Assembly (NCBI GenBank): GCA_902779565.1
Contig: CACZCD010000026.1
Location: forward strand, 1 to 63,625
DNA length: 63,625 bases
Reading direction: 5' to 3'
Origin: an uncultured bacterium
Lineage (GTDB): Bacteria; Verrucomicrobiota; Kiritimatiellia; RFP12; UBA1067
Below are positions 41,202-63,625 of this stretch, one piece after another; positions within the stretch are counted from its first letter, which is position 1, and the number at the start of each line of letters is the position of its first letter. Below the pieces are notes generated by a model, which had not been told where the DNA came from, did not search any database, and saw nothing but the letters and a program-made list of their open reading frames with translations. Position numbers and translations under genes: made by a program.

Positions 41202-44087
41202 TTAAGGTTCACGAGCACGGTCTATGAGCCCATCCAGAATCGCCGTGCCCTCGGGCGTGCCAGAGAGAATATCCAGCCCAAACGCCGCCATGTGCCGTCC
41301 CTGATCCGCCTTGATCTCGCCCAGATAGAGAAAACAGTCCTTTTTCCCCTCTCCGACAATAACCGGCGAAACCACCGTAAGCTTCTTCCGAGAAAGTTCA
41401 AGCGCCCCCTCCTTTACCACACGGAACAGAAGCGGTGTCAATGCACCTTCATGCGGCAGACCAGCGAGCGCCGGATGGCCTTTCGCAAGCGCCGTCCCGA
41501 CCTGATTGCCCATCGACCACCAACCGAGCGAAACGTTCGGCTTTCCGTCCCAGCCCGAAACCGTCAGCACATTCTTGCCGCGCGCCAACGCATCGGCAGC
41601 GGTCTGCGAACCATACGGCGCAACGACCACACGCGCCTTTGCGCCCTCCGGCGATGCGGCATCGGCCACGCCATCATAGAGTTTCGCGAGCATGGGACGC
41701 AGCGAGGCATCGGCCGCGATGTCCGATCCATCACGCTTGACCCGCTTCGGAAACACCCAAAAGTCCCATTCGTTCGCAATGCCGCCGATCTTGGCGCGGA
41801 GCACGGCCTTGACCGCCTTTGCGACAGACGGAAAAACAATCTTGTCCGAGGCCACTTTCCGTGCGGGTCCAATGGTGAGGTTTGAGAGGTTTGAGACGTT
41901 TGAGGGGTTTGAGGGGTTTGAGGGGTTTGAAAGGATGACAAGACTCCACTCCAACGTGGCATCTTTCAGCGCGGTGTCGCCAAAGTGGGCAAAAAGGAAA
42001 TCAACGGGCAGCGTGTCGCCGGACGTGAACACCCTGTTCTCGTCGGGCGTATCAAGCAGAACGCAAGACGGTCCGTTGAAACGGGCAAACTGTTCCGGCG
42101 AAAGGCCTCCCCTCTTCGTCTGCCAGAACGGATCGAACAGACCCTGCGCCGAATGGATGGCACCGTTGGCGACCACCACGTCCACAGCCGTCCAGAAACA
42201 GTACCCGCCGCAATACGGATCCTTGCGCGCCCACTCGATGCCACGTTTCTGGTAAACCCCCTGAAGCGTATGCTGGGCATCCTGCAGCGCATCGCCCCAC
42301 GCCGCATCAAGCCCGCGCGCCGCCAGCCACGCCAAACGATCGGCGCGCGAATCCGGCGCGGTCCATGCGCCCGTATAGAGCGGTTCCAGCCGCGTATCCT
42401 GCTTCACGCAAAGGTTCAGGTATTCGTGGCATACGAACGGGCGTCCCGTCCTGAACGTGCCGCGCGGCCAAACATCGCGGGGGCCGATGTCATAGTCGGA
42501 GTTTCCGACGTCGTTGCATCCTTCGTCATCATCGCGTTCCTGCCACAACATCCGGTCGCCGTCCTGATGGTTCACGAGCCGATCCGGATCGGTGCGTTTC
42601 ACGAATGCGTACATCGCTTTCTCGACGTACGGCCCAAGCCGCCCCTCGTTGCCGCCGCAATACACGGCGAACGACGGATACCGCCGGTAGTGCGCCTGCA
42701 GTTCACGCAGATCGCGGAGCGGATCGAACGTGAACGCCTCCGTCGGAACATCGGTATAGTACGGGAGCTCCGCCTGAATAAGAATCCCCACCTCATCCGC
42801 CGCCTCAAAATACTCCGGCACTTCGCAATGCGTGTGGAGACGCACGAAGTTGAAGCCCGCCGCTCGCGCCTTCTTCAGATGGGCAAGGTGCACCTCGCGG
42901 TCAGGCGGCGGCATGCCGGTGATCGGATACACGCTGTCGTCACCGAACCCACGCAGAAAGTACGGATGATTGTTCAGGTAGAACTTGTCACCCCGCACCT
43001 CCAGTTTGCGCACCCCGAACCGTTCACGCCGAGAGTGAACGACTTTGCCTTCCGCGTCAAGAAGCTCAATCTTCGCCCAGTAGAGATTCGGATGCTCCGG
43101 CGACCAAGGACGGAAGTTCCGGAGCGGAAGACGGAGCGTGTAATTGGAGGATCGGAGGATTGGAGGATTGGAGGATTGGAGGATTGGGTGTTCGACGGAG
43201 TGTCCATCAACGGTAAAGCGAATCTGGTAGGGCGCGTTATCCTTAACGCGCCGTTCGGCGGATTGAGAACAATCCGCCCCACCAACATCACAGCCACCGA
43301 TCGTCACATGCAATTCCGCCTCACGCTTGTCGAAATCGCCGCGCACCCACGCGTCGTCGATGCGCGTCGCGGGCGTCGCTTCCAACTCGACATCACGATA
43401 GATGCCGCCCCAGCGATGGACGTTGCTCATGAGTCCCTTGCGTGAGGGCAGGGCGTTGTTGACGCAGACGATTAGACGGTTCGTCTCGCCCAGCTTCACG
43501 AACGGCGTGATGTCGTACTTGTACGTGCCGCAGTAGTTATCCACCCAAGCAACGGGGTGCTTGTTCACCCAGAACCATCCCTGAGACTTCACGCCGCCGA
43601 TCTTGAGCCACACCTTCTTTCCGTTCCAGCCGGACGGCAGAACCTCATCCTTGCGGTACCACCCCTCGCCCATGTAGATGTGATTGATCTTCTTTGGGCT
43701 TGAATCCCAGAGCGGGTCCCAAGGGATGCTCAGGCCCGGCTCACCCACGCCCTGCGCCTCCCAAGCGCCCGGAACGTGGATTTTCCGGGCTTCCGACCAA
43801 GGCGTATCCATTCGGCTGCGGCAGACGGCCGACGTCTGTTCATCCACCTTGGCGAACGGCGTTTTTGTATGCCGGTAGCGTCGGCAAAACGCCTTGGGCT
43901 GCGTGACGAACTCCCACTCGCCGCGCAGGGAGATGACATCAGGCGATGCCTCGCGCCCGACAGGATTCACCACGGCGGGCAGCGGTTTGATTCCCGCCCA
44001 CGTATCCACGCCCTGCAACTCCTCACCGTGCAATGCCAGCCCCACGCACGCAACGGCAGCCATCAAAAACATCAAACCTTTTTTCAT
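41202..44087 (-). CDS. Secreted GH2-family glycoside hydrolase (beta-galactosidase/glucuronidase-like)
   Basis: A 961-aa protein. A signal peptide (MKKGLMFLMAAVACVGLALHG) precedes a GH2 sugar-binding domain (EGWYRKDEVLPSGWNGKKVWLKIGG), an Ig-like domain and a barrel with the acid/base motif YCGGNEGR and a candidate nucleophile in VCHEYLN. C-terminal beta domains follow. Three repeat structures lie inside the reading frame: a 60-bp palindrome (43225-43284), five 8-bp units (43146-43185) and six 9-bp units (41881-41934, giving repeated Ser-Asn-Pro-like triplets). All keep the frame open. Confidence 0.85.
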   Translation of the reverse strand: MKKGLMFLMAAVACVGLALHGEELQGVDTWAGIKPLPAVVNPVGREASPDVISLRGEWEFVTQPKAFCRRYRHTKTPFAKVDEQTSAVCRSRMDTPWSEARKIHVPGAWEAQGVGEPGLSIPWDPLWDSSPKKINHIYMGEGWYRKDEVLPSGWNGKKVWLKIGGVKSQGWFWVNKHPVAWVDNYCGTYKYDITPFVKLGETNRLIVCVNNALPSRKGLMSNVHRWGGIYRDVELEATPATRIDDAWVRGDFDKREAELHVTIGGCDVGGADCSQSAERRVKDNAPYQIRFTVDGHSVEHPILQSSNPPILRSSNYTLRLPLRNFRPWSPEHPNLYWAKIELLDAEGKVVHSRRERFGVRKLEVRGDKFYLNNHPYFLRGFGDDSVYPITGMPPPDREVHLAHLKKARAAGFNFVRLHTHCEVPEYFEAADEVGILIQAELPYYTDVPTEAFTFDPLRDLRELQAHYRRYPSFAVYCGGNEGRLGPYVEKAMYAFVKRTDPDRLVNHQDGDRMLWQERDDDEGCNDVGNSDYDIGPRDVWPRGTFRTGRPFVCHEYLNLCVKQDTRLEPLYTGAWTAPDSRADRLAWLAARGLDAAWGDALQDAQHTLQGVYQKRGIEWARKDPYCGGYCFWTAVDVVVANGAIHSAQGLFDPFWQTKRGGLSPEQFARFNGPSCVLLDTPDENRVFTSGDTLPVDFLFAHFGDTALKDATLEWSLVILSNPSNPSNPSNVSNLSNLTIGPARKVASDKIVFPSVAKAVKAVLRAKIGGIANEWDFWVFPKRVKRDGSDIAADASLRPMLAKLYDGVADAASPEGAKARVVVAPYGSQTAADALARGKNVLTVSGWDGKPNVSLGWWSMGNQVGTALAKGHPALAGLPHEGALTPLLFRVVKEGALELSRKKLTVVSPVIVGEGKKDCFLYLGEIKADQGRHMAAFGLDILSGTPEGTAILDGLIDRAREP
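41881..41934. repeat. Six in-frame 9-bp tandem repeats within the GH2 gene
   Basis: Units of the form TTTGAGGGG on the plus strand encode the tripeptide series SNP/SNV/SNL on the minus strand. Copy changes keep the frame. Confidence 0.85.
43146..43185. repeat. Five 8-bp tandem repeats within the GH2 gene
   Basis: GGAGGAT(C/T) repeated five times on the plus strand. The protein shows an eight-residue periodicity (SSNPPILQ, SSNPPILR). Gain or loss of a unit would shift the frame. Confidence 0.85.
43225..43284. repeat. 60-bp palindromic element inserted in frame in the GH2 gene
   Basis: The outer ends TGGTAGGG and CCCCACCA are inverted repeats with one mismatch. Inside are two perfect hairpins: GGCGCGTTA/TAACGCGCC (9 bp, loop TCCT) and GGCGGATT/AATCCGCC (8 bp, loop of 6). 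The element adds 20 codons (about GGADCSQSAERRVKDNAPYQ). Confidence 0.8.
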
Positions 44088-46099: not shown

Positions 46100-48922
46100 C
46101 TACCGCACGACAATAGTGGTTCCATCAGGCCCGCCAGTGCGCGTGTGAAGGAACTCAACAGGGGCAAGCGCCCCCGCACTTACGCGCAGATCGTCGATGC
46201 GACCCATGAAGAAGCCAGCGGTCTGCTCGGCATCTGCACCAATCGTGATTATGTCGCTAAGCATAGCCGCCGTCTTTGCCCAAGCGCGACCAGCAGGCAT
46301 CGTACGCTGATAATCAACATAGAACTTCACAGCATCAGCGCCAGACTGCGTGCGGTCAATGACGAGCGCGATATGGTGCCAATCCCTGTCGGCGAACGAT
46401 GCTATATTGGTGCTGCCACCGTTTAATGTAGCCAGATGGTCATACGGGACGAAAGACCCCGAAAGTGTACCCGCCGTGGTATCGGATGCCACCATAAACG
46501 ATCCCGCGCCACTCCCCATGCCAAATATCGAGCCTGACGCTGGATTTTTCCCGAACCACGCAAAACATTCCACCGTCGCTTGTGCAAGCACAGAAAGATC
46601 AATATTGGTCGTGGTCACATATGACGATGCGCCATTGAACACAAGGGCACCACCACGCACAGCGCAATCGTTGACCAGCAAACCGTTCTGATTCGAGAAG
46701 TCCCAATACGCCAGAGTCCGATTCTCTTCGGGAACAACATCGTTATCCAAGTTGTCCAGCACGTAGTCGGCAGGTTCAAGCGCCTCGTCGGAGATGGCAA
46801 CGCGATAGTACATCCCCTTGAAATACGTACTGTTATAGTACGATGGGCTGTTGCCGAAATATATCCTCTGACTACCAAGGTTGTCAATTGGCGTCGTCGC
46901 GGTTCCCGTCTTTGTTATTGAGCCGTCCACCACAAGCGTAAAATTTGCTGGCATGGTGTTGGCATCTATCGAATAACGAATGCGGTAATGCCCATCTAAC
47001 GCCGAGCCGCGACTACCAGACGTAAGCGTCGAAGCCCAAGACGAAGAGTCCGCCACCGCTCGGAAAAGTCCGCGGTAACTATCGTTGCTGCCGCTTCTGT
47101 CAACAACGAATCCTCCGGCAAGCGTAGTGTCCTCGCTCCCTGCGATGGCAAACGGACCGGCGGGACTCCACCATCTGTTGTAGTCAATCTCTATGGTCAT
47201 TGCCTTCGTATGCCTAAGATCGATAGGATCTGTGGTGTAGAAACGCTGGCTGGATCCGTTCAGCTTCAATCCAGTACCAGACCCGGTAAACGTCCCGCTT
47301 TCATTCGCAAATGCCGGCGACCCAACCAATGTAAGCGAATGTCCGTTGCCTGTCACATCGTCAGTCTTTGACTGGTCAAACCTGTAGAGGGCAATTGCCT
47401 TCTTTGCCGGAGAGCGATCAACAAGGAACTTATCAGGGGTGAGCACCGCCGCCGTGATTCGGACATCGTCAAGCTGACCGTAGTATGGACACGCATTAAT
47501 TTCTGAAGCGTTGATTTCCTCTGTGCTCGATCCTCCGATCTGCTTATTTCCGCGCCTAAATAAATACAACGGCAAATCGCTAAGCGCAAACGCCTTCTGG
47601 TCAGCGTTTCCAGCCTCGGTACTACACGCGGCAGGAATCCCGTCGATGTACATCGTAACGATGCCCGCGCCCTGTTTAGCGGGATCGTACACCATCGCAA
47701 GATGACGCCACCGATAGTCGCCAAGATCACCAAATGCCTCTTCAGATGTGCGAGAGTAGGCACCAGAGCCGCCTGATACGTGGAAACCAGAAAAGATCGT
47801 GGAGTAACCGGAGGACTTGTCATCAAAACTGATGCGGAATGCGCCAGGATTATTCCAATAGCCGACACCTGACTCCATCAGCATGCCGATACGCGTGCTC
47901 GTCGAATCTGACTTGAAATACATTTCTACCGTAAAACCAATCTTCGAAAATGCCGAAAACGGGAACGCCTCGTCCACCGAACAGTTAAATTCAGATAGAC
48001 GGGTTCCGTAGGTCGTAAGTGCATAACCTGATTTAAATGCGACATTACTCACGGCAGCAAGGTCGAATCCATTGCCTGTAACGTCTTTGCCGCCATTGCT
48101 GCCGAACGGCCAGTAGGCGACCACGGGCAGTCTATCGTCATCCGCCCGCATTGCCTTACCGACAGTCGGATACTTGAGGAAATCTTCTGGTGCGACTACG
48201 CCGCGGCTGATGCGCACATCGTCTATATAGCCTCGAAAATAGCTCATCCCCTCGACGTACTTCTGGCTATAACCAATCTGGAAGAAGTCGTTGAAGAGGT
48301 TAGGAACTGCGTAAGGGGCATTTTCAGTGCGCCCGGCGTTCCTCTGTCGAACGCCGTCTATGTAAAGACGGCATGAGTTTTCGTTGTTTCCCTGCGAACG
48401 GTCAATGACATATGCGATATGGTGCCATGCTCCATCTACAAAGCCTTTATTGTTACCTGCAAGAGATTGGGACACATGGTCCGAATCATTTGTATAGGAA
48501 CTGTCGAGCTGCCATCCTGCCTCCGATGTGCGCATTTGCGCCTGATAAACACCAGCGTTATAGAGAATGAAACCGCCAGTCCCAACCCACGGCTCTGGCG
48601 TAGTGAATAGGACTGCGTAAACACCGGCTGGCCGCTCCGTCAACCGACACCAGCACTCAAACGTCACCGCCGTCTCGCCGGAGAGGTCGAGCGCGGTCGC
48701 CGTCTTCAGATATTGATCCGTCCGTCCATCATTTAGCGACACATAAGCCGCATCGCTTTCAGCAATCTCCACGCCTTCGAGGTGGTGCCCATTGCCGGAG
48801 ACGTCGTTGAAGCCGTTCGTGCCGAATGGCCAGTAGGCTATCGTTTCCGTCTCCGCCGAAGCGGAAATCGCCAATCCAAACGCCGCGCCAAATGCGCAGA
48901 ATGCCGTCGATAGTGCTTTCAT
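46100..48922 (-). CDS. Secreted protein with four LamG/concanavalin A-like domains
   Basis: A 940-aa protein. After a signal peptide (MKALSTAFCAFGAAFGLAISASA) four LamG units follow, each opening with an AYWPFG/ALYRFD/AYWDF motif near residues 28, 268, 520 and 735, with D-VTGNGH calcium-site signatures and W-H-(I/L)A-(Y/L)-V-(I/Y)-D motifs. It probably binds polysaccharide at the cell surface; there is no catalytic motif or recognisable cell-wall anchor. AAGGAGTG precedes the ATG by 7 nt. Confidence 0.85.
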   Translation of the reverse strand: MKALSTAFCAFGAAFGLAISASAETETIAYWPFGTNGFNDVSGNGHHLEGVEIAESDAAYVSLNDGRTDQYLKTATALDLSGETAVTFECWCRLTERPAGVYAVLFTTPEPWVGTGGFILYNAGVYQAQMRTSEAGWQLDSSYTNDSDHVSQSLAGNNKGFVDGAWHHIAYVIDRSQGNNENSCRLYIDGVRQRNAGRTENAPYAVPNLFNDFFQIGYSQKYVEGMSYFRGYIDDVRISRGVVAPEDFLKYPTVGKAMRADDDRLPVVAYWPFGSNGGKDVTGNGFDLAAVSNVAFKSGYALTTYGTRLSEFNCSVDEAFPFSAFSKIGFTVEMYFKSDSTSTRIGMLMESGVGYWNNPGAFRISFDDKSSGYSTIFSGFHVSGGSGAYSRTSEEAFGDLGDYRWRHLAMVYDPAKQGAGIVTMYIDGIPAACSTEAGNADQKAFALSDLPLYLFRRGNKQIGGSSTEEINASEINACPYYGQLDDVRITAAVLTPDKFLVDRSPAKKAIALYRFDQSKTDDVTGNGHSLTLVGSPAFANESGTFTGSGTGLKLNGSSQRFYTTDPIDLRHTKAMTIEIDYNRWWSPAGPFAIAGSEDTTLAGGFVVDRSGSNDSYRGLFRAVADSSSWASTLTSGSRGSALDGHYRIRYSIDANTMPANFTLVVDGSITKTGTATTPIDNLGSQRIYFGNSPSYYNSTYFKGMYYRVAISDEALEPADYVLDNLDNDVVPEENRTLAYWDFSNQNGLLVNDCAVRGGALVFNGASSYVTTTNIDLSVLAQATVECFAWFGKNPASGSIFGMGSGAGSFMVASDTTAGTLSGSFVPYDHLATLNGGSTNIASFADRDWHHIALVIDRTQSGADAVKFYVDYQRTMPAGRAWAKTAAMLSDIITIGADAEQTAGFFMGRIDDLRVSAGALAPVEFLHTRTGGPDGTTIVVR

Positions 48923-48971
48923 TATGCATCACTCCTTGTCTTTAGACGAGGGACTATCCCCCCACAGCTCG

Positions 48972-48983
48972 CTATGATACCAT
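48972..48983 (-). promoter_or_regulatory. Probable extended -10 upstream of the LamG gene
   Basis: TGGTATCAT on the minus strand about 50 nt upstream of the LamG ATG. The gap contains AAGGAGTG. Confidence 0.4.
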
Positions 48984-49030
48984 CAATCGTCACTTTTTTC
49001 GGCAAAAAACACTTGCGAAATTTAGCAATC

Positions 49031-49086
49031 CCATGAGCCGATTAGTCACAGGCCTATGAGCCGCATACCCTCAGGACTATGAGCCG
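49031..49086. repeat. Left array: three direct repeats with 23-bp period
   Basis: CCATGAGCCG, CTATGAGCCG and CTATGAGCCG start at 49031, 49054 and 49077. The octamer TATGAGCC recurs in the opposite orientation in the right array at 49560-49691. Confidence 0.7.
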
Positions 49087-49203
49087 ATGATCCGTGGCCA
49101 GGCGCCGCCGATGGTTCCTTCGTGGAACTCAAGTTCCCCGGCAGCAAGCGCGTCTGCGTCCCCCTTGAAAAGACCGCCCTCCTTGCGAATCACTACGCCA
49201 CCG
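49083..49203 (-). pseudogene. Duplicated C-terminal fragment of the downstream nucleotidyltransferase gene
   Basis: The minus strand encodes RKEGGLFKGDADA...LAAGELEFHEGTIGGAWPRIIGS, nearly identical to the end of the intact gene at 49843-50652 but lacking a 12-bp segment. The rest of the gene is absent. It marks a duplication or recombination event bordering the HTH gene. Confidence 0.85.
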
Positions 49204-49220
49204 CTCCGCTCTTGCCTTGA

Positions 49221-49247
49221 ACCCGTAACGGGTGGATATGGTAAAAT
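49221..49247 (+). promoter_or_regulatory. Promoter and palindromic operator of the HTH gene
   Basis: ACCCGTAACGGGT (49221-49233) is a 13-bp palindrome in the -35 region. TGGTAAAAT (-10 at 49242-49247) follows, and the ATG is 7 nt later. Autoregulation by the HTH product is plausible. Confidence 0.5.
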
Positions 49248-49254
49248 ACGCGCC

Positions 49255-49572
49255 ATGAAAAGCCATAGATCCACGGGAAGACCAAGGGGAAGACCGCCAT
49301 CCCTGCCGTTCGATCTCGACGAGCAGGTGCTATGCGACCTTGAAAGCAGGATGGACACGACAACCTTTCTCGTCACGCCATCCCTCAGCCAAATAGCGAG
49401 AAGGCTGAAGGTCAGCCGTGCATCAATCAAGAGGGTCGTCGCAAGGCTCAGGAACAGCGGATACATCGAACTTTGCTACATCAAGAAGCGGCCTACCGAC
49501 AAAATCTGTACCATCCTCTACAAGCTGCTGCGCTATGAGTCAAGGCATACGTCCTCTGCATGTGGCTCATAA
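49255..49572 (+). CDS. Small AT-hook / winged-HTH DNA-binding protein
   Basis: A 105-aa basic protein. The N-terminus has an AT-hook-like GRPRGRPP. Residues about 45-75 form a helix-turn-helix (SLSQIARRLKVSRASIKRVVARLRNSG), followed by a wing-like hairpin (YIELCYIKKRPTDK). Family not identified. The gene is flanked by repeat arrays whose shared octamer is inverted, and its last codons form the first unit of the right array, so the protein may bind these repeats. It is the only plus-strand gene in this neighbourhood. Confidence 0.65.
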   Translation: MKSHRSTGRPRGRPPSLPFDLDEQVLCDLESRMDTTTFLVTPSLSQIARRLKVSRASIKRVVARLRNSGYIELCYIKKRPTDKICTILYKLLRYESRHTSSACGS

Positions 49573-49691
49573 TTCCCCTTGGTGAGGCTAAGGCATTCTG
49601 ACCATGAGGCTCATAATTCCCCTCCACGTGGCTCAAAACTCCCTTTCACGTGGCTCAAAATTCCCCTCCACGTGGCTCAAAATTCCCCCTC
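49560..49691. repeat. Right array: six 22-bp direct repeats
   Basis: Units start at 49560, 49582 (degenerate), 49604, 49626, 49648 and 49670, consensus ACGTGGCTCAAAATTCCCCTCC. CACGTG palindromes and AAAATT tracts recur. The first unit overlaps the HTH stop codon. Confidence 0.85.
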
Positions 49692-49729
49692 TGCAAGGGA
49701 CAATCCCCTGCGGTTTCCGTCAGCGGTGG

Positions 49730-49837
49730 TCACTCAAAATACTCCACGTCGGGATTGAGGAAGCCGAGGGAATAGACCTGCGGCAAGAGCTTGGCGCGGA
49801 GCGCATCGTGTGCGGCGCGCAACGGCTCGGCAAGCAT
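49730..49837 (-). other. Possible 35-codon ORF or gene remnant after the nucleotidyltransferase
   Basis: An open frame MLAEPLRAAHDALRAKLLPQ...NPDVEYFE follows the nucleotidyltransferase stop by 5 bp in another frame. Its composition looks protein-like. It may be a small gene or the truncated tail of something cut by the adjoining repeat array. Confidence 0.3.
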
Positions 49838-49842
49838 CACGC

Positions 49843-50652
49843 CTATCCGATGATCCGCGGCCATGCGCCGCCGATGGTTCCTTCGTGGAACTCAAGCTCC
49901 CCGGCGGCAAGTGCCGCAACAAGCGCGTCTGCGTCTCCCTTGAAAAGGCCGCCCTCCTTCGTCATCACCGCCTTGCCGACCTCGGCCGGCGGAAGGAGCT
50001 TTACCATGTCGCGCGCACGCCATATCATTTCGTGCCACTTGCTGGACAAATCGGCAAGATCATAATCCGCCGCGTTCCGTATCGCCATTTCAAATTCAGG
50101 GCGGGTGTAGTTCGTGCGCGCGCACATCTCAAGGATATAGTTGGGCGTCAACCCAAGATCCTTCCCGTTTGCCGCCCATGCTAGCAGACCAAGCGGCTGG
50201 ATGTCTTCGGCGCATGTTATGGTGTCCACCCAATCCCTCGGCACGCGGCGTCCCGCAAGGGCGAGCAACTTGTTGGTCGCAAGATCGAACGGGTGAAGCG
50301 TGAGTCCCAGCAGGTCGTCTTCAATGAGAGGGAAGAACCTGTAGGCGGAATCCTGAACCCACTGAATCTCCGTCGCGTCCCCCGATCTGGAAACCACAAC
50401 CTCCACGATGTAGTCGCGTCTGCGCGTCACGCGAATGTCATAGCCGGCGGACTGAAGTACGGCGCAGTCATGGTCAGCCGCGCGTTCAAGCGCCGAATAG
50501 CTGCTGTTGAACACATCGATGTCGGACGACACGCGCGGACGCTTGAGTTGGTGATTGAGCGCAAGCCCACCGGCGATGTACGTCTCGCCGCCGTCTATGC
50601 GCGAACGGGCAATCCGCTTGAGTACTTCGGACTGAAATGCGGTGACAGCCAT
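49843..50652 (-). CDS. Nucleotidyltransferase, AbiEii-like
   Basis: A 269-aa protein with GGLALNHQLKRPRVSSDIDVF, the G-G/S...D-x-D nucleotidyltransferase signature seen in the AbiEii/DUF1814 toxin group. A middle segment (LHPFDLATNKLLALAGRRVPRDWVD) contains the family-typical K-LAL-RR-DW-D pattern. It is paired with an upstream 81-aa gene overlapping by 58 bp, as in toxin-antitoxin cassettes. A near-identical tail fragment lies at 49083-49203. Confidence 0.75.
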   Translation of the reverse strand: MAVTAFQSEVLKRIARSRIDGGETYIAGGLALNHQLKRPRVSSDIDVFNSSYSALERAADHDCAVLQSAGYDIRVTRRRDYIVEVVVSRSGDATEIQWVQDSAYRFFPLIEDDLLGLTLHPFDLATNKLLALAGRRVPRDWVDTITCAEDIQPLGLLAWAANGKDLGLTPNYILEMCARTNYTRPEFEMAIRNAADYDLADLSSKWHEMIWRARDMVKLLPPAEVGKAVMTKEGGLFKGDADALVAALAAGELEFHEGTIGGAWPRIIG

Positions 50653-50840
50653 GACCTGATTCTCCCTATTCGCCTAAACGCCTCCGCGTCGCCGTAAGTT
50701 TCGATCGACGAAAGCACCTGTTCCAGCTGGACTTCATTCTGCGGAGGTCTAGACAAATCGGCAAACCACAAGCAGACGTCACGGTAATCCCGGACAACTG
50801 ACCTGTAGGCCTCCGAATCAACTATCTCCTGAATTGTCAT
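50595..50840 (-). CDS. Small helical protein, possible antitoxin partner
   Basis: An 81-aa protein (MTIQEIVDSEAYRSVVRDYRDVCLWFADLSRPPQNEVQLEQVLSSI...). No HTH is evident, so it is not a classical AbiEi. The start at 50840 is chosen over a longer reading because an extended -10 lies 6 nt upstream and the peptide begins with a normal helix there. Its 3' end overlaps the nucleotidyltransferase start by 58 bp. The role as cognate antitoxin is inferred only from order and size. Confidence 0.6.
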   Translation of the reverse strand: MTIQEIVDSEAYRSVVRDYRDVCLWFADLSRPPQNEVQLEQVLSSIETYGDAEAFRRIGRIRSWLSPHFSPKYSSGLPVRA

Positions 50841-50846
50841 GCCGCT

Positions 50847-50852
50847 ATTATA
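50847..50852 (-). promoter_or_regulatory. Extended -10 promoter of the two-gene nucleotidyltransferase cassette (leaderless)
   Basis: TGGTATAAT on the minus strand, with TATAAT ending 6 nt before the ATG at 50840. Confidence 0.6.
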
Positions 50853-50888
50853 CCATATCGAAACCCGGCGGCGCAATTCCCCGAAAAG

Positions 50889-52112
50889 TCACGGGGTGCG
50901 GTTCCCGGCGTTGCGGTAGTCGCGCATGGACCGGCCAAACCGCTTCACGAACACATGCTCCATGTACGATTCCGACCGATACCCGCACAGGCGGGCGATT
51001 TCACGGTGCGAAAGACGTGTTCCGGAAAGGAGCCGCCGCACATGCTCCAGACGCACCTCCTCAATCGCCTCACGCACGGACCGCCCCTTGATCTGCCGGT
51101 ACCGAAGATCCAGAAGCCGACGCGAGATGCCGAGCAAACCAGCGAGAACATCCGCGTTCAGCCCGTCGCAGGCGCGCTCCGCGATGATCTCGTCGGCCTG
51201 GCGCACCATCCGCCCCGATGGCGCGCACGGCGCCGTGGACATCCGGGCAGTCACCGTCACATCCCCCACCACCCGCTGACGCAAACGCACACGCCTTCCT
51301 TTCATGAGCTTTGAGAGGGTCTGCGCGGCAAGATGTCCTTCCGCCTCAAAATCAGGATGTATGCTCGAAAGCGACGGGTGGGTGTGGATGCAGAAGATCG
51401 GATCGTCATCCACGCCCAGAACGGCCAGATCATCCGGCACGCGCACACCGCCCCCCAGACAGACCCTCAAGACACCATCGGCGCAATGGTCGTTGGAGGC
51501 AAACACGGCGGCGGGCTTCGGCAACGCCTTCAGCCACGCGAGCAGATCCGGATCGTTCCATCCGACCTCACCCGGAAAGATGCGGACGTCCCGATGACCT
51601 AAACGCCGCAGCTCCCGCGCGAAGAACGCCCCACGGTCCCGTGACCAAGCACGATCCGCAAACGCACCCACGAAGCCAAACGAGACATAGGCGTGCGCTT
51701 CGGTCTTCGCGAGATGCTGTGCCGCCATGCGGCCAATCCTCTCAGAATCCACGGAAATGAACGCGCACTTCCGGCTACCTTGTACCGCAGATCCAAAAAC
51801 GTCCGGCAGATCGATCCCGACAACGGGTACCTTCCGGGACGTCAACAGCTCCAGCACATCCGCGTTGAAATAGGGTTCATACCCCATGATGCCAGACCGG
51901 GTATTGATCCCACAGATGACGCCATCAAGATCCTCCACCGGAAAGTCGCGGAACAACTCCACGCCAAACGAGTGGCGGATGATTCGCAGGTTCCACTCCT
52001 CTCCGCTTTCGCGAAGAAAGCGCATCACGCCGTTGTATTCGTCCACGCCCTCGCGATACGCGAACGGCAGGGCCACGACAACAATCGGCACCTTCGCGGA
52101 ATGTCTTTTCAC
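50889..52112 (-). CDS. XylR-type AraC family transcriptional regulator
   Basis: A 407-aa regulator. The N-terminal 280 residues form a LacI/PBP1-like sugar-sensing domain (VPIVVVALPFAYREGVDEYNGV, FVGAFADRAWSRDRGAFF, PAAVFASNDHCADGVLRVC). The C-terminal 100 residues carry two AraC HTH motifs (LAGLLGISRRLLDLRYRQ, IARLCGYRSESYMEHVFVKRFG). It probably controls neighbouring glycan-use genes in response to a sugar. The GTG start at 52112 has GAGGAG upstream; a TTG at 52124 is the alternative. It follows the PIG-L gene. Confidence 0.9.
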   Translation of the reverse strand: MKRHSAKVPIVVVALPFAYREGVDEYNGVMRFLRESGEEWNLRIIRHSFGVELFRDFPVEDLDGVICGINTRSGIMGYEPYFNADVLELLTSRKVPVVGIDLPDVFGSAVQGSRKCAFISVDSERIGRMAAQHLAKTEAHAYVSFGFVGAFADRAWSRDRGAFFARELRRLGHRDVRIFPGEVGWNDPDLLAWLKALPKPAAVFASNDHCADGVLRVCLGGGVRVPDDLAVLGVDDDPIFCIHTHPSLSSIHPDFEAEGHLAAQTLSKLMKGRRVRLRQRVVGDVTVTARMSTAPCAPSGRMVRQADEIIAERACDGLNADVLAGLLGISRRLLDLRYRQIKGRSVREAIEEVRLEHVRRLLSGTRLSHREIARLCGYRSESYMEHVFVKRFGRSMRDYRNAGNRTP

Positions 52113-63455: not shown

Positions 63456-63457
63456 TT

Positions 63458-63625
63458 TCAGCCACAAAGAACAGGAGAAGCAGGAGAGTGGTGGTATTAT
63501 TCTATGCCACAAAGAACAGTAGAAACAGGAGGTTTGTCGAGGATAGGTTTTCAGCCACAAAGAACAGGAGAAGCAGGAGAATGGTGGTATTATTCTATGC
63601 CACAAAGAACAGTAGAAACAGGAGA
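63458..63625. repeat. 93-bp tandem repeat running off the window end
   Basis: Unit 1 is 63458-63550 and unit 2 starts at 63551. Each unit holds two related submotifs starting GCCACAAAGAACAG (63461, 63506, 63554, 63599; spacings 45, 48, 45). The 93-bp period keeps one frame open, from ATG at 63504 to the end. Confidence 0.85.

Follow-up and report, generated by a model that had tools for sequence, protein, structure and literature searches.

Protein-and-repeat modules in gut Kiritimatiellae form what looks like an undescribed family, exemplified by a locus in the 63,625-nucleotide stretch of DNA analysed here (the window; contig C26 of a 4.09-Mb draft genome). By sequence comparison, the gene for a 105-aa DNA-binding protein and the array of 22-base repeats to its right are one module, and the repeats are probably the protein's own binding sites. 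On balance, we think it somewhat probable that the two are a cognate winged-helix/array pair, part of a larger family from initiator/iteron modules, that travels with defence genes and regulates itself and its cargo. Searches of the open-licence literature turned up no account of such a family, whether in Kiritimatiellae or associated with restriction-modification (RM) genes. The region contains the following features.

49031..49088, + strand: left array, three 23-bp units with a TATGAGCC core (TRF score 70), a separate repeat type
49084..49193, - strand: duplicate of the AbiEii-like gene's 3' end, between the left array and the AT-hook gene
49221..49233, no strand: palindrome ACCCGTAACGGGT, the operator of the earlier note, not conserved
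49237..49247, + strand: promoter-like TATGGTAAAAT directly 5' of the ATG (from sequence comparison)
49255..49572, + strand: gene for an AT-hook and winged-helix DNA-binding protein of 105 aa (from the open reading frame, HTH_36 match, homologues, dN/dS and model)
49562..49690, + strand: right array, six positions in 22-bp steps with consensus GTGGCTCA-WAAWT-CCCC (from TRF and pattern searches)
49843..50652, - strand: AbiEii-like nucleotidyltransferase gene (PF08843, 6.6e-6), convergent with the module

A small winged-helix protein under purifying selection

The earlier note's gene for a small AT-hook/HTH protein is borne out by the open reading frame at 49255-49572. Its product has an RPRGRPP core of the AT-hook type, conserved among homologues, followed by a winged helix (Pfam HTH_36, E = 5e-6), and it is a single domain comprising the DNA-binding part only, with no second domain. 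In the AlphaFold model (mean pLDDT 78.5, about 90 across the winged helix), the fold is similar to that of MarR- and ArsR-type regulators, with no structural match passing an E value of 0.001; as modelled, the protein combines an AT-hook with a MarR/ArsR-like winged helix. Values of dN/dS between intact gene copies are 0.08-0.35, indicating a real protein under purifying selection. Among named sequences, the closest relatives of the gene come from rumen or omasum Kiritimatiellae MAGs, so the host is probably a gut member of the Kiritimatiellae. Homologues were detected by protein profile search in 26 of 115 genomes of the family, and with a broader profile in 27 of 346 genomes of the class, every one in the same family.

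Structure and distribution of the arrays

The right array keeps an exact 22-bp register over the six positions reported earlier, five of which are good units (starting at 49562, 49606, 49628, 49650 and 49672), while the second (49584, GAGGCTAAGGCATTCT) is degenerate. The unit is non-palindromic. The TAA stop codon of the AT-hook gene lies inside the first unit, and the final residues, CGS, are encoded by TGTGGCTCA. Chance does not account for this array: when up to 3 mismatches are allowed, the 17-bp unit has 34 matches in its own genome compared with 1 for a reversed control pattern, and a two-unit array pattern is present in 19/115 genomes of the GTDB family (4/19 genera), with zero matches to the reversed control. 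The same pattern was found in 0 of the 47 remaining genomes of the order; these genome-wide counts are from pattern and profile searches. In its own genome, the right-array family is present on seven further contigs, and on four of these the stretch examined shows no trace of the gene. Of the others, C61 encodes a 58%-identical gene, C88 an internally deleted gene copy and C18 a 3' gene remnant.

Among the arrays examined, spacing between units (n = 169) is 22 bp in 155 cases and 44 bp in 13, the latter corresponding to one degenerate unit skipped, in keeping with the iteron-like layout that had been proposed. A good unit, a degenerate position and good units again is the layout of 12/51 arrays, including that of the window, which points to common descent. 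In array pairs with unrelated flanks, similarity is confined to the array to within a few bases. A segment at 49733-49842, containing the end of a gene terminating VYSLGFLNPDVxYFE, is also found to the right of the C61 array, so the right flank of the module is partly shared between these two loci. An Rfam search of 48800-50900 matched no RNA element, and a known RNA element was thus rejected as the identity of the region.

The left array has the three 23-bp units previously reported; sequence comparison places it outside the conserved module. Its units match the reverse complement of the right units in the TATGAGCC/GGCTCATA core only, so the sequence said to be shared in opposite orientation is limited to this core and the remainder of the units is unrelated. 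The left-array type recurs at one place, contig C52 of its own genome, and the unit was found in 0 relatives; the bracketing of the gene by inverted arrays, in which the earlier note saw the possible core of a mobile or plasmid-derived unit, is therefore a local feature. The palindrome ACCCGTAACGGGT is present in the sequence, yet it is absent upstream of homologous genes, contrary to what a conserved operator would imply. Several homologous genes do have in common a promoter-like motif (TATGNTAAAAT) directly before the ATG. Two copies of the AbiEii-like gene's 3' end lie one on each side of the module (49084-49193, 110 bp, versus 49843-49968; 87-93% identity), an apparent sign of local rearrangement.

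Gene-array pairing and matched types

Gene and array are linked. A 21-24-bp tandem array lies within 600 bp of the gene in 29 of the 31 loci with complete 600-bp flanks, which are not phylogenetically independent, compared with 1.8% of pseudo-genes placed at random in 170 kb of control sequence. Arrays without the gene, together with the gene without arrays, had been named beforehand as grounds for abandoning the association. The former are common, and they count against a cognate pair; the latter are rare (2/31), namely L169, in which two degenerate units remain, and L239, which encodes a larger protein.

Protein type and repeat type also change together. SRSSIKR-like recognition helices accompany GGCTCA units and SRSTISR-like helices accompany GTCTCA units, a split that tracks two protein clades and may be a single evolutionary change. 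Three genomes encode both protein types, each with its matching array (the window versus C61; C351 versus C409 in G067; C161 versus C6 in G072). In G072, the C161 gene is internally deleted and the C6 array is reduced to two degenerate units. Distant homologues have arrays of other sequence, with units of 22 or 23 bp, belonging to GGCTCAAAACCCC, TGTCATAAATCCCCC, TTTTAGACCA and TGACACC..GGTGTCA types, and the joint change of protein and repeat is drawn from these as well. For example, TGGCTCAAAACCCC arrays are found at L209, L223 and L225, a TGTCATAAATCCCCC array at L210, a TGTCAAAATAGCCCCC array at L211, TTTTAGACCA arrays at L213 and L215-L217, with TCTAGACCA in L224, and TGACACC..GGTGTCA arrays at L218 and L226. 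The array is directly downstream of the gene in the window group and mostly upstream in the distant groups. The longest relatives (L228 and L229; about 280-310 aa) also have 23-bp arrays, and the L228 protein matches HTH_36 (7.8e-12), DnaD_N (1.1e-5) and a lambda O-like initiation profile (1.3e-14).

A gene of 238-245 aa appears to form a two-gene operon with the adjacent HTH_36/DnaD-like gene (L228, 1143-1880; L229, 2763-3479), and its L228 copy has no Pfam or PHROG match. Composite array islands, in which several 21-23-bp tandem families of differing sequence occupy one intergenic site, mostly with no winged-helix gene, are present at L010 (C38), L152 (C52), L013 (C64), L107 and L229. At L107, the array type of the L226/L240 protein subfamily adjoins the A array, and at L229 five array types are close to the HTH_36/DnaD-like gene.

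Neighbouring genes and horizontal transfer

Genes for RM and other defence-related proteins are found beside many arrays. MmeI-type IIG restriction enzymes account for 7 of 100 array-neighbour proteins, and further neighbours include other RM enzymes, AbiE, a PtuA-like ATPase, PIN, ORF6N, DUF4143 and DUF3987 proteins. No RM family is among those listed for 37 control genes from the window, a contrast that is suggestive only, given summary counts, a small control and partly related loci. At L160-L162, an ATGA overlap joins the AT-hook gene to the stop codon of the MmeI-type gene, and RM genes are present at several further loci; many loci, the window included, have no adjacent RM gene. DUF3987 genes occur in the orders gene-array-DUF3987 (L168, L101), array-DUF3987 (L104) and DUF3987-array-gene (L050).

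The module has moved between genera, in line with the mobile unit suspected earlier, here consisting of the gene and the right array. Loci L160 (genus g6) and L161 (genus g14) are 95.9% identical over 781 bp, a stretch that comprises the 3' end of the MmeI gene, the AT-hook gene, the array and 179 bp past the array, whereas the middle of the MmeI gene is 72-88% identical or unalignable; this pattern indicates recent transfer with exchange of the specificity region. In G072 (L178), a 5.3-kb insertion of two genes (methylase-like and helicase-like) separates the array from its flank. Its close relative G075 (L119) does not have the insertion, its array and flank being contiguous, and the two arrays differ by one unit. 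The homologous locus L163 has an Eco57I-type methylase where G072 has the insertion.

Proposed function and alternative explanations

Under the cognate-pair reading, the winged helix would read GGCTCA or GTCTCA, the GC-rich half of a unit, and the AT-hook would contact the adjoining A/T run (WAAWT). As units are exactly two helical turns apart, several molecules could bind side by side along one face of the DNA. Linkage, register, the joint change of protein and repeat type, selection and horizontal transfer are shown by the comparisons; binding, cooperativity and regulation by the 105-aa protein are inferences. Each protein subtype in the wider family would have its own 22-23-bp array, and the family would derive from initiator/iteron modules of mobile elements that now travel mostly with defence genes (MmeI-type RM, other RM, AbiE, PIN and DUF3987). 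The likeliest present role would be control of the protein's own expression and of adjacent cargo, and an array without a gene may be what is left of a similar module, or an outlying target for one. The variation in array position between subfamilies would not be expected under simple autoregulation and counts against it. The subtype-specific sets of protein and array provide a natural data set on winged-helix/DNA specificity, and the modules mark horizontally moving defence cassettes in gut Kiritimatiellae, in which mobile elements are little known. If the arrays are origins, controllers or decoys, they represent a component of defence islands missing from current lists of defence genes.

The main rival, which we consider unlikely, is a mobile replicon (plasmid, satellite or IME), now integrated or decayed, whose origin of replication would be the module. 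Its parts could then be assigned, with equal reserve, as iterons (array), origin binder (winged-helix protein), primase/helicase partner (DUF3987) and addiction cargo (RM and toxin genes). This scheme fits the iteron-like array and its spacing, the initiator, DnaD_N and lambda O-like matches of the longer relatives, the RM and toxin-antitoxin cargo, and the DUF3987 genes beside the arrays at the four loci named above, the DUF3987 protein matching a phage primase (2.7e-55). However, it is weakened by a short protein without a second domain and by the scarcity of origin elements, since a 40-bp stretch of at least 75% A+T lies within 300 bp in only 9% of 43 arrays and DnaA boxes are nearly absent (0.023 per 600 bp). 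Terminal overlap indicating circularity was absent from eight short contigs or fragments. The protein has no match in 72,556 plasmid and 50,697 phage records, the array pattern none in 2.9 million viral contigs, and the related gene is likewise absent from viral contigs. A phage or plasmid origin of the gene was rejected on these comparisons, and one TTTTAGACCA match in a viral contig was judged a chance match in a prophage.

Arrays, especially those without a gene, might instead be decoys, iterons in the chromosome that would titrate away the initiators of incoming replicons and provide passive immunity stored in defence islands. Such decoys have a precedent in the block to lambda replication by ectopic lambda origins or iterons (PMC4488673, PMC3349717), and they would suit the defence neighbours and the sites where several array types of differing sequence lie side by side without genes. 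We nevertheless regard them as improbable: no invader carrying the repeats was found in the viral contigs searched, and the array in the window comes with a gene of its own, for which a decoy would have no use. A related and distinctly improbable proposal is that winged-helix proteins and matched arrays together form a defence-linked system, in which sets of arrays would be kept as decoys for invading iteron replicons or as determinants of incompatibility with them. If true, this would be passive, sequence-specific immunity besides restriction enzymes, with sets that include gene-less composite islands. Little probability attaches to neutral minisatellites beside an ordinary regulator in a coincidental neighbourhood; differences in unit number between close relatives and the many gene-less arrays agree with it, but the 29/31 versus 1.8% association, the fixed 22-bp register without indels and the match of repeat sequence to protein subtype do not. 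Transposon ends, on the model of the multiple transposase sites of IS21, Tn7 or Mu and with an enzyme acting in trans, are very improbable, although 22-bp sites are repeated 3-7 times, dispersed copies have the array alone in common and internally deleted derivatives exist. No transposase was recognised in the ORF clusters or among the Pfam families listed, up to 25 per list, for the 100 neighbour proteins, no second end was found at the loci examined, and junctions compared with relatives have neither target-site duplications nor terminal repeats, which also speaks against the transposon subterminal repeats suggested in the earlier note. The precise boundaries that it proposed to look for are likewise missing, as array-bearing sites differ from relatives by mosaic, gene-level junctions and not by clean insertions.

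Comparison with known systems

Iteron origins (lambda O/ori-lambda; RepA_N, for example PLE RepA; DnaD_N/HTH_36 proteins) resemble the modules in having tandem direct repeats of about two helical turns beside a winged-helix gene, and the resemblance extends to the initiator-like profiles of longer family members and to the DUF3987 primase-like partner in some loci. PLE RepA, with its iterons, is a published case of a satellite initiator whose N-terminal domain is DnaD-like (PMC7145576). In contrast, the protein of the window consists of one domain of 105 aa and has an AT-hook, most arrays have no AT-rich unwinding region or DnaA boxes, and many arrays are dispersed per genome with frequent RM neighbours.

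C proteins of RM systems have an Xre-type HTH, and their C-boxes are short palindromes upstream of the C gene itself. At some loci there is a likeness in a small DNA-binding protein encoded with RM genes, as in the ATGA overlap with MmeI-type genes at L160-L162. The fold here, however, is MarR/ArsR-like (Pfam HTH_36), the tandem arrays are long, non-palindromic and, in the window type, downstream, and no upstream palindrome is conserved. In type III partition (TubR-tubC), a small winged-helix protein binds a tandem array, an arrangement that the modules would share if the inferred binding holds; they differ in having no TubZ-like NTPase among the neighbours examined and in being chromosomal and multi-copy. 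REP/RAYT elements and the ends of IS21, Tn7 and Mu offer a further parallel in dispersed short repeats with or without a linked gene and in multiple 22-bp sites. The units here differ from REP/RAYT in being non-palindromic, with no Y1 transposase near the arrays examined, and from IS21, Tn7 and Mu ends in that the loci examined have no DDE transposase and no second end.

Other tandem repeats in the window

Two further regions of the window contain tandem repeats. A gene for a 961-aa glycosidase-like protein includes short-period repeats at 41877-41934 (9 bp) and 43143-43187 (8 bp). A 93-bp tandem repeat rich in AGAACAGGAG, with 98% matches, occupies 63456-63624 and extends to the window end.
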